A DNA stretch of 64,000 nt from Candidatus Obscuribacterales bacterium. GTDB taxonomy: Bacteria; Cyanobacteriota; Vampirovibrionia; Obscuribacterales; Obscuribacteraceae. The notes under the pieces are model-generated. The model saw only the letters and a program-made list of their open reading frames with translations, was not told the DNA's origin and did no database searches. Positions within the stretch are counted from its first letter, which is position 1, and the number at the start of each line of letters is the position of its first letter. Of this stretch, positions 1,667 to 4,483 are shown piece by piece. The stretch lies in NCBI GenBank assembly GCA_019744775.1, contig JAIETZ010000002.1:248001-312000 (forward strand), read 5' to 3'. A program made the translations under genes and the position numbers.

Positions 1667-2129
1667 TTAGCTGATTTACCTGAAATCGGTTCCAAAATCA
1701 GAGGACCTTTGGTAGCTAGAACGTAAGCCAGTTACAAGACAAAGAAAGACGGGGCAACTTGCCCCCTCTACATGGCTTACCTTCGCTTCCGACTCAGGTA
1801 ACGGCCGTCTCTAGCTCCAAACTTTTTATGCCCGTCAGAGGGAGAAATTAAACTTCAAGTGAAGAACAGGTTTTATTTATCTATTTATGCGGCTCAAAGA
1901 TTTTTGCCGTCCTAAAACCCCACCCCTGTTTGCATTTCAAGTCTTTTCGCCAAGACAATTCATGTCGAGCAAGCCCAAGCTCAAAAAACAGCCGAAAAAT
2001 TCAACTAGATGTTGAGAGACTCCTTATATATATCCCTCTGCCCATCGGCGTCTTAGCATTTTCAAGCAGTTAGAATTGAGCCACTGCCAAAGGCAATTTT
2101 TGGCGGTATTTCACGAGGAATTCAGAACG
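1667..2129. other. Intergenic region between divergent genes
   Basis: This 463-base gap separates the minus-strand exoprotein from the plus-strand AhpD-like gene, so it should hold both promoters. It contains the folded element at 1747-1810 and an AT-rich TATATATA stretch near 2025-2035 that could be a -10 region for the plus-strand gene. No convincing protein-coding frame was seen; the open frame from 2076 is only an upstream extension of the AhpD-like gene. Confidence 0.5.
1747..1810 (-). ncRNA. Candidate structured leader RNA (three-way junction)
   Basis: On the minus strand, upstream of the exoprotein gene, three perfect helices can nest. The outer one is AGACGG (1810-1805) with CCGTCT (1752-1747). 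The second is TTACCT (1801-1796) with AGGTAA (1782-1777), closing a 13-base loop. The third is GGGGCA with TGCCCC, at about 1751-1765. Together they make a compact three-way junction roughly 80 bases before the start codon. I could not match it to a riboswitch class I know (c-di-GMP-I, c-di-AMP, cobalamin and manganese types were considered). It may be a regulatory leader or a chance fold. Confidence 0.35.
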
Positions 2130-2711
2130 ATGACCTGGATTAAGACCATCCCCATGACTGAGGCAACGCCTGAGCTGGGACAAGCAATTGAAGGACAGAT
2201 GAAAATGTATCCTCCGGAATACATGACCCCTGTCGAAAGCTTGATGACTCACGAACAACAAGATGCGGGACCGGCAATTATCATGGCGCACAGCCTCTTG
2301 CCGAATACTCTGTATCACACGTTTGCTACATTCGGTACTCTCTTATCGCCGGATTTGCCACTTAGCCGTAAGCAACACGAGATGATTGCATCAACGGTTT
2401 CATCTCTTAATGCCTGTCATTATTGAATAGAGTCGCACGTAGAATTTCTACGTCGAGTGACTCTGGATGAGTCGCTATCAAACGCAATCAAGAAAGACTA
2501 CAAAACCGCTGATCTCTCCAAAGAAGATCGCGCCATGCTCGAGTACGTCGAAAAGATTACCTTGAGCCCGGCCAAAATTCAGCGCGAGGATGTCGAGAAG
2601 CTGAGAAACTTTGGCTTTGATGACACAGCTATATTACAAATCAACCTCATTGCTTCCTGGTTTAACTACATAAACAGGGTTGCCGATGGGCTTGGTGTTG
2701 GTCGTCCTTAA
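2130..2711 (+). CDS. AhpD-like peroxidase-related protein, probable selenoprotein (in-frame TGA at CxxC)
   Basis: The frame runs 193 codons and is interrupted only by TGA at 2424-2426; it continues open for 95 more codons to TAA at 2711. The product belongs to the AhpD/carboxymuconolactone decarboxylase fold. It shows LSRKQHEMIASTVSSLNACHY before the TGA and IESHVEFLRRV after it, and ends FNYINRVADGLGV. Relatives read CxYC-V-E-S-H here, so the TGA replaces exactly the second redox cysteine of CxxC: C96-H-Y-U99 if read as selenocysteine. The start ATG 2130 has GAGGAA nine bases upstream and matches the family start MTWIKTIP. Expected role: thiol/selenol peroxidase or disulfide reductase in the cytoplasm. 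The OsmC-like gene follows, forming a peroxide-defence pair. The alternative is a nonsense-mutated pseudogene, but the position of the TGA, the intact downstream frame and the adjacent stem-loop argue against it. SelA/B/C/D genes are not in this window. Confidence 0.8.
2429..2464 (+). promoter_or_regulatory. SECIS-like stem-loop directly after in-frame TGA
   Basis: Two bases after the TGA an imperfect 36-base hairpin forms. The lower stem is AGAGTC (2429-2434) with GACTCT (2459-2464). There is an asymmetric internal loop (GC against CGAGT), then an upper stem ACGTAGA (2437-2443) with TCTACGT (2447-2453) and a three-base loop ATT. Bacterial SECIS elements lie in the coding region just downstream of UGA, with the apical loop about 15-35 bases away and usually a G at the loop start. 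If the last two upper pairs open, the loop begins with G2442. The placement fits; SelB binding is inferred. Confidence 0.6.
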
Positions 2712-2806
2712 GCTTTTCTTGACAAAACTACTATTGGCTAAAAGACCGGTTAAGATTGCCTTGATCGGTCCCAGAACTGGCACGCTCGTGCCTGGAGGAA
2801 ACGTAA

Positions 2807-3232
2807 ATGGCTGAAGTTGTAGTCACAAGCAAAGCGCAAAAATACCAACAAGAAATCAAAGTTGGCAAACATACATTCCAATCAGACATCACCGTTGAAT
2901 CCGGCGGGCAAGATACGGCTCCTGGTCCGCATGAATTGCTTTTAGGCGCACTAGGTTCATGCACTTCCGTCACTGTGCAAATGTTTGCAGAGCGCCGCGG
3001 CTGGGATCTCAAATCCGTCTCGGTCAAACTGACAGAAGAGAAGATTGACGATCCAAATAATCCGGGAGTCAAAATCCCAAAAATCGTCCGCAATATTGAA
3101 GTGTCCGGCAACCTCACGGGCGAACAGCTGGACAGCTTGAAAGCAATTGCCGACAAGTGTCAGATTCACAAACTTCTGACTGGACCAAAAGAAATAATTA
3201 CCGACTTGAAGAGCACTCAACCGGTTAGCTAA
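2807..3232 (+). CDS. OsmC-family peroxiredoxin-like protein
   Basis: The 141-residue product has the OsmC/Ohr fold signature: HELLLGALGSCTSVTVQMF carries the first redox cysteine and ADKCQIHKLL the second. Both cysteines are present, so it should be active in reducing organic hydroperoxides with a dithiol partner. The short form with GxxGW after the first helix resembles the YhfA/OsmC-like subgroup. The start ATG has GGAGG eight bases upstream. A GGCACG-CT-CGTGCC hairpin sits immediately before the ribosome binding site. It lies 95 bases after the AhpD-like selenoprotein candidate on the same strand, which suggests joint service in oxidative-stress defence, though co-transcription is not shown. 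Confidence 0.9.
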   Translation: MAEVVVTSKAQKYQQEIKVGKHTFQSDITVESGGQDTAPGPHELLLGALGSCTSVTVQMFAERRGWDLKSVSVKLTEEKIDDPNNPGVKIPKIVRNIEVSGNLTGEQLDSLKAIADKCQIHKLLTGPKEIITDLKSTQPVS

Positions 3233-3244
3233 TTTCTTCCGTTT

Positions 3245-4483
3245 TCAGCCACCTAGCTGTTTCAAACGCAACCTCAATTCATGTTCTTCCTGCAGGCGTT
3301 TCTTGCTTTGAGCGATTTCTGCCAGCAATTTCACACCGTCACGTGAATTGTAATTTTGCAAAACAGCTGTCGCAGCTTTTGCTTGGGCGTCATCTATCCG
3401 TCCGGCTTTAAAATCAATTTGCGCCTGAGACAGCAATGCTTCATTGTCTACTTTTGCCGGTTCTGTTTTTGTTACCAGAGCCAAAGTGTCTTCGTCGACA
3501 ACACTAGATACAGTCCGCTCGATCGAACCCTTTTTACCGCACCAGACTCTGTGCAAGGCAATAATGAACTGTCCGTTGCTGTTTTCATCAGCAAAGCCTG
3601 CCAGATCAACGCTTATGTCATAGAACCTATCAAGCAATGCTTCAGCATCGGCATATTTACCTTTGTCGACTAGCACATTGACTAAATTAGCAACTTTGGC
3701 CGCGTCCGAATCGGGTTTAAATCCAAGGACATATTTGTCGTCTGGTCCAACCTTGGCGGAACGATCAACCAAAATCTTGAAAATGTGATCAGCTCTTGCT
3801 TCTAACGCATCAGACTGTGTTTGTTTGTTTTGCCGCGCCAAAAACGAGGAGTAGTCCCACATCAAATTAGCCTGATCAAAAAGCACTAGATCCGTTCTTT
3901 TGTCTTCAGGAATACTCTGCTGACCGGCATCAGCATCAATTGCCAATTGATAGAAGAGTTGCGCTTGTTCTTTATTGTTGAGTGATTCATACGCGCGAGC
4001 CAATTTGCGCAGACAATTAATGGTTGTGTCAGGCGACATGCTCTGTTGCATGACAGCAGCGCGCAATAGATAATCAATTGCTTCTTTGTATTTCTTTTGA
4101 TCGATATAGCAATCGGCAATTTCAATTAGAACGTGCGCTAATTTCAAATGACGCTTCTTATCAATTGTTTCTTTGATTTCCAATAAAGTAGTTAGAGGGA
4201 AAATCGCCTTGTCCGCCTTGCCGTCATAGCGATATAGCTTCCCTAAAGCTGACAAACACCGGCTTTCCAGATACTGCTCATGTGATCCTGAGGAGGAATT
4301 TTCAATTCGCTTCAACTCTTCTTCAAGAAGACCCTCGGCTTTTTCTACATGACCTCCATCAAGCGACTGGCAAAGCCGCGCCTGGCATTCAAGCCATTGG
4401 CGCTCTTGAGAATCGTTAAATGTACAACTGGTGACGCTTGCAGTGACAAGCGCTATCATAACTGCTGAAGTCAGGTATTTCAT
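3245..4483 (-). CDS. TPR-repeat lipoprotein
   Basis: The product starts MKYLTSAVMIALVTASVTSC, a lipoprotein signal with a lipobox cysteine at residue 20, so it should be membrane-anchored. An upstream GTG-type extension of 26 codons is open but would bury the signal peptide, so ATG 4483 is preferred. The body is helical with several tetratricopeptide-like units (LGKLYRYDGKADKAIFPL, IADCYIDQKKYKEAIDYLL, LARAYESLNNKEQAQLFYQ, near residues 80-190) and another near the C-terminus (AQIDFKAGRIDDAQAKA). TPRs are protein-interaction scaffolds; no partner can be named. It is divergent from birA, with only about 20 bases between the starts. Confidence 0.8.
   Translation of the reverse strand: MKYLTSAVMIALVTASVTSCTFNDSQERQWLECQARLCQSLDGGHVEKAEGLLEEELKRIENSSSGSHEQYLESRCLSALGKLYRYDGKADKAIFPLTTLLEIKETIDKKRHLKLAHVLIEIADCYIDQKKYKEAIDYLLRAAVMQQSMSPDTTINCLRKLARAYESLNNKEQAQLFYQLAIDADAGQQSIPEDKRTDLVLFDQANLMWDYSSFLARQNKQTQSDALEARADHIFKILVDRSAKVGPDDKYVLGFKPDSDAAKVANLVNVLVDKGKYADAEALLDRFYDISVDLAGFADENSNGQFIIALHRVWCGKKGSIERTVSSVVDEDTLALVTKTEPAKVDNEALLSQAQIDFKAGRIDDAQAKAATAVLQNYNSRDGVKLLAEIAQSKKRLQEEHELRLRLKQLGG

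Follow-up and report, generated by a model that had tools for sequence, protein, structure and literature searches.

Does an in-frame TGA that interrupts an otherwise open gene of an Obscuribacterales bacterium mark a broken gene, a genuine end of translation, or a site of selenocysteine (Sec) insertion? The locus lies in a stretch of 64,000 nucleotides, here called the window, and its features are collected in Table 1. The evidence laid out below indicates that the TGA is almost certainly a selenocysteine codon and not the scar of a broken gene. At a probability of about 0.96, translation yields a full-length selenoenzyme of the AhpD-like, peroxidase-related kind, the UGA being decoded by SelB and Sec-tRNA(Sec) by means of a downstream stem-loop.

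Table 1 Features of the AhpD-like locus and related genes. Positions are those of the window; entries with the prefix G000 lie outside it, elsewhere in the same genome
Feature	Position	Strand	Description
AhpD-like, peroxidase-related (TIGR01926) selenoprotein gene	2130..2711	+	193 residues, Sec at 99; TIGR01926, PF02627, AF2 and PDB fold matches
Selenocysteine codon UGA, U99 of CHYU	2424..2426	+	TGA in 87/89 distinct homologous loci, TGC in 2
Hairpin 1	2437..2453	+	ACGUAGA-AUU-UCUACGU; UGA-to-loop 17 nt, -6.8 kcal/mol
Hairpin 2, probable SECIS	2456..2476	+	AGUGACUC-UGGAU-GAGUCGCU; 8 bp, UGA-to-loop 37 nt, -11.0 kcal/mol
OsmC-like gene (Cys form), downstream	2807..3232	+	PF02566 57.8 bits
SelW/T/H-family gene, likely second selenoprotein (L134)	G000:C3:196280-196480		one in-frame TGA
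Cys paralogue of TIGR01926 (L122)	G000:C1:177475-177957		91.5 bits, CQYC, no stop

The reading frame and the selenocysteine machinery

Translated with TGA as Sec, the frame runs from its ATG to a TAA with this one codon as the sole internal stop, in the context ...LNACHY-U-IESHVEFLRRV..., just as a sequence-only reading of the locus, made without database searches, had described it. The start codon is backed by an upstream GAGGA and by W3 and I4, which are invariant in homologues. That reading had also placed the TGA at the second cysteine of a CxxC motif, and solved relatives do carry Cys at the position of U99, as in the segment 'NHCYYCLTAH' of 3c1l. The window has 33 open stretches of 100 codons or more that end on TGA; 2 of these continue in frame for at least 90 open codons, the second of them being antisense to the OsmC gene. 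Other open reading frames in the window end normally on TGA, in line with the standard code that had been concluded from the sequence; on this ground, and with SelB and tRNA-Sec present, we rejected a reassigned TGA code.

The genome that contains the window (4.1 Mb, 98% complete) encodes the complete Sec machinery. Profile searches returned selB (368.5 bits), selA (502 bits) and selD (359.7 bits), each above its curated cut-off, and a tRNA-Sec with anticodon UCA scored 72 bits. All four components named in the sequence-only reading are thus present, including the selB and tRNA-Sec on which it had made its case hinge. The same genome holds a second TGA-containing gene, of the SelW/T/H family (TIGR02174, 48.8 bits, above cut-off), with the motif CGA-U and a hairpin that fits the bSECIS model (its AGGUU loop 21 nt downstream of the UGA), so the machinery is not kept for the AhpD-like gene alone. 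A Cys form of the TIGR01926 family also coexists with the Sec form in this genome (Table 1).

Protein family, active site and conservation

The protein matches TIGR01926 (peroxidase-related enzyme) with 113.5 bits against a cut-off of 81.8, and PF02627 with 28.9 bits against 23; all 36 aligned homologues match the TIGR01926 model as well. An AF2 model with Cys in place of Sec (mean pLDDT 93.3) has the all-helical AhpD fold, and its best fold matches in the PDB, 6k40, 3c1l and 2pfx, are AhpD-like peroxidase-related proteins. We rejected NF041238 (AhpD-related CFYUT) as the family, the score being 63.5 bits against a cut-off of 175, with an alignment confined to the second half of the model's 357 positions.

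The active-site pattern CxxC/U-x3-H, with a Glu placed 12 residues ahead of the first Cys, is present, and the proton-relay residues are complete (E84, C96, Y98, U99 and H103). We take U99 to be the equivalent of Cys133 of M. tuberculosis AhpD, which is the peroxide-attacking cysteine of that enzyme; at this position of U99, C96 would resolve the selenenic acid. The predicted product is an AhpD-fold helical protein in which U99, the resolving C96, E84, Y98 and H103 would make up a proton-relay redox site, after the relay described for AhpD, including its Tyr variant in PA0269 (PMC3141380). Such a selenoenzyme would most likely reduce hydroperoxides or hand electrons to a peroxiredoxin, and a role in peroxide defence is plausible from family membership. 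The sequence-only reading had drawn support for this role from the OsmC-like neighbour. The identity of the neighbour stands (Table 1) and the two genes are possibly co-transcribed, but their adjacency is seen only within the same genus, a linkage too local to carry weight, and we therefore down-weighted it as functional evidence.

How far the TGA itself is conserved bears directly on the competing explanations. The AhpD-like gene occurs in 15 of the 194 relatives' genomes searched (the window's own genome counted), and another 80 loci were drawn from genome contigs carrying the labels Obscuribacterales, Acidobacteria, Armatimonadetes/Chthonomonas, Planctomycetota, Latescibacterota and others, some of which overlap with the first set; 89 distinct loci were compared. 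Several phyla are represented among the 87 loci with TGA at this codon, the remaining two having TGC. E84 and H103 are invariant throughout, and C96 is found in 88 of the 89. The relatives therefore carry TGA at precisely the U99 codon and not the scattered stops that had been named beforehand as the mark of a pseudogene. A nonsense mutation, or a TGT or TGC miscalled through sequencing or assembly error, could well leave a lone stop in an otherwise intact frame. This explanation is refuted by the recurrence of the same TGA across several phyla, in genomes that were assembled independently, and we regard it as practically negligible. It is further opposed by strong purifying selection downstream of the TGA: compared with a same-genus, 98%-identical relative (farther comparisons were saturated at synonymous sites), dN/dS is ~0.01 before the TGA and ~0.02 after it, and both halves are thus strongly constrained.

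The same conservation weighs on the reading of the TGA as a true stop, by which a truncated protein of 98 residues would be made, along with a separate chain from the downstream 84-codon ORF starting at GTG 2457. A mechanical ORF call indeed yields exactly these two pieces, the split that had been foreseen for automatic annotation. However, the stretch between the TGA and GTG 2457 (IESHVEFLRR), which includes H103, is among the most conserved parts of the protein, and in a genome that lacks the Sec machinery the homologues run on uninterrupted, with Cys; a true stop is thus very improbable, if marginally less so than a pseudogene or an error. That the UGA is read as Sec remains by far the best account, and the distribution of the machinery agrees with it. 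Both TGC loci (L037 and L039) belong to a single relative, G008, in whose genome searches found no selA, no tRNA-Sec and no SelB above cut-off; here Sec may have been lost and then replaced. By contrast, selA is present in all 11 TGA-bearing genomes that the selA search covered, and tRNA-Sec scored above cut-off in 13 of 14; the one genome without a match, G002, is an 88% complete draft in which selA is present. This is the co-occurrence expected for a Sec codon.

Two further observations concern the relatives. One of the two Cys-form copies in G008 reads THYC, its first CxxC cysteine having been lost. In addition, of 27 same-family genomes that have selA, 16 (e.g. G005, G006, G009, G014 and G015) are without the AhpD-like gene, some of them incomplete drafts, so that Sec is presumably used in other proteins.

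Candidate SECIS hairpins

Bacterial Sec insertion signals have been modelled as hairpins with a loop of 3–9 nt bearing G in the first two positions, a stem of 4–16 bp, a loop 16–37 nt from the UGA and an MFE of at most -7.5 kcal/mol (bSECIS model; PMC13188914 Fig. 2). Hairpin 2 alone among the hairpins after the UGA agrees with this model, its spacing being at the far edge of the range, while hairpin 1 fails the loop rule, its AUU loop having no G. The sequence-only reading had proposed a SECIS search over 2424–2470. A model-fitting hairpin does follow the UGA, but that range would clip it, as it ends six nucleotides further on, at 2476. By the same rule, 3.9% of the TGAs across the whole window are followed by a comparable hairpin; the hairpin alone therefore proves little, and its conservation outweighs the match.

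That conservation differs between lineages. Codons 111–114 (ACT CTG GAT GAG) are identical in 12 of 12 Obscuribacteraceae-type sequences, and a sliding window over these sequences places the peak of excess synonymous conservation at hairpin 2 (z 4.8, the maximum of the gene). Hairpin 2 also folds beyond what synonymous recodings do (mean z -3.8 over 12 relatives). In an Acidobacteria-dominated set (n = 61), by contrast, the frozen stretch is codons 103–108 (CAC GCA GAG TTT CTG CGT; z 4.8), which form the counterpart of hairpin 1, CACGCAGAGUUUCUGCGU, with loop GUU and a spacing of 17, and hairpin 2 is absent (folding z +0.5 in 30 of the 61 sequences, mostly acidobacterial). Counts of base-pair covariation added no support: cells were paired in 84% of cases against 27–46% when the hairpin was slid, a figure that is not above column shuffles, in part because hairpin 2 hardly varies. 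The pattern TGA-N28-38-ACTCTGGATGAGT, sought in 60 genomes, returned the AhpD-like gene in relatives and one match in G009, where another in-frame TGA lies within 14 codons and which we took as chance. An Rfam search of 1900–3300 gave nothing relevant, with one sub-threshold match to SraC/RyeA.

Judging from these comparisons, the SECIS for this UGA is most likely hairpin 2 and not the hairpin nearest to the UGA. SelB carrying Sec-tRNA(Sec) would decode the UGA under the guidance of this stem-loop, which lies within the coding sequence 3' of the codon and would be the site bound by SelB. Alternatively, Sec might be inserted with the help of hairpin 1, or of a long 38-nt hairpin right after the UGA, hairpin 2 being frozen for some other purpose. 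This contests the assignment of the hairpin and leaves the status of the selenoprotein untouched. Hairpin 1 does show a moderate folding excess in the Obscuribacteraceae-type lineage (mean z -1.9) in addition to being frozen in Acidobacteria, and trimming the 3' side also leads to the prediction of a 16-bp hairpin that begins just past the UGA. Yet the synonymous sites of hairpin 1 are conserved no more than expected in this lineage, the hairpin is weakened in some relatives and lacks the loop G in the window, whereas ACUCUGGAUGAG is invariant. We thus consider an alternative SECIS unlikely, though a far more serious contender than the explanations that deny Sec insertion altogether.

With hairpin 2 as the probable SECIS, hairpin 1 may be an auxiliary element, a remnant or an alternative SECIS, corresponding to the hairpin frozen in Acidobacteria. 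One scenario, to which we give even odds, is that the SECIS has moved within a single selenoprotein family, Acidobacteria and others using hairpin 1 at 17 nt and Obscuribacteraceae hairpin 2 at 37 nt, with the old hairpin kept in between; the retained hairpin 1 perhaps folds away the extra distance from UGA to loop in the latter. If this is true, the two forms would record a relocation of the SECIS and open the spacing requirements of SelB to testing. More generally, these results suggest that one and the same codon is recoded through different hairpins in different phyla, the simplest reading being a SECIS in a different hairpin in each of the two lineages, with hairpin 1 preserved here in a weaker form.

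Comparison with known selenoproteins and AhpD-like structures

As the sequence-only reading had stated, Sec-containing AhpD-type proteins are known in other bacteria. AhpD-like TIGR01926 proteins with CxxU are a catalogued selenoprotein family, exemplified by MCB9421940.1 (PMC13188914 Table 1), and AhpD-like CXXU sequences, filed under COG2128, were reported from the Sargasso Sea (PMC1088965). Obscuribacterales are placed by NCBI in Candidatus Melainabacteria. Our search of the literature, mostly open and with few subscription journals, found nothing joining selenoproteins or selenium with Obscuribacter or Obscuribacterales, or selenocysteine with Vampirovibrion- names, and among the papers naming both selenocysteine and Melainabacteria, none has a title and abstract that deal with the use of Sec by these bacteria. 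This weakly suggests that the AhpD-like selenoprotein, a member of a known family, is unreported in this non-photosynthetic lineage of cyanobacterial relatives in the open literature searched. The gene adds a clear Sec-decoding lineage among Melainabacteria (Obscuribacterales), and its reading as a single frame corrects what automatic annotation would split in two.

With the catalogued TIGR01926 CxxU family the protein shares a match to the same model above cut-off, the same CxxU motif and Sec at its second position; it differs in coming from the Obscuribacterales/Melainabacteria lineage and in a probable SECIS placed differently from that of acidobacterial members. The Sargasso Sea sequences, described as AhpD-like (COG2128), may belong to the same subfamily. 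The NF041238 CFYUT (seleno)protein has a related AhpD-type domain and the Sec motif C-F-Y-U, but that family is set apart by the score far below its cut-off and by the partial alignment given above. Finally, the solved structures from D. radiodurans (6k40), M. loti (3c1l) and P. aeruginosa (PA0269; 2o4d, 2ijc and 7xw1) share the helical fold and the E-x11-C-x-Y-C/U-x3-H spacing, and PA0269 has Tyr at the middle position as here (PMC3141380), whereas all of them carry Cys at the place of Sec and are 22–33% identical to the protein in the fold search.
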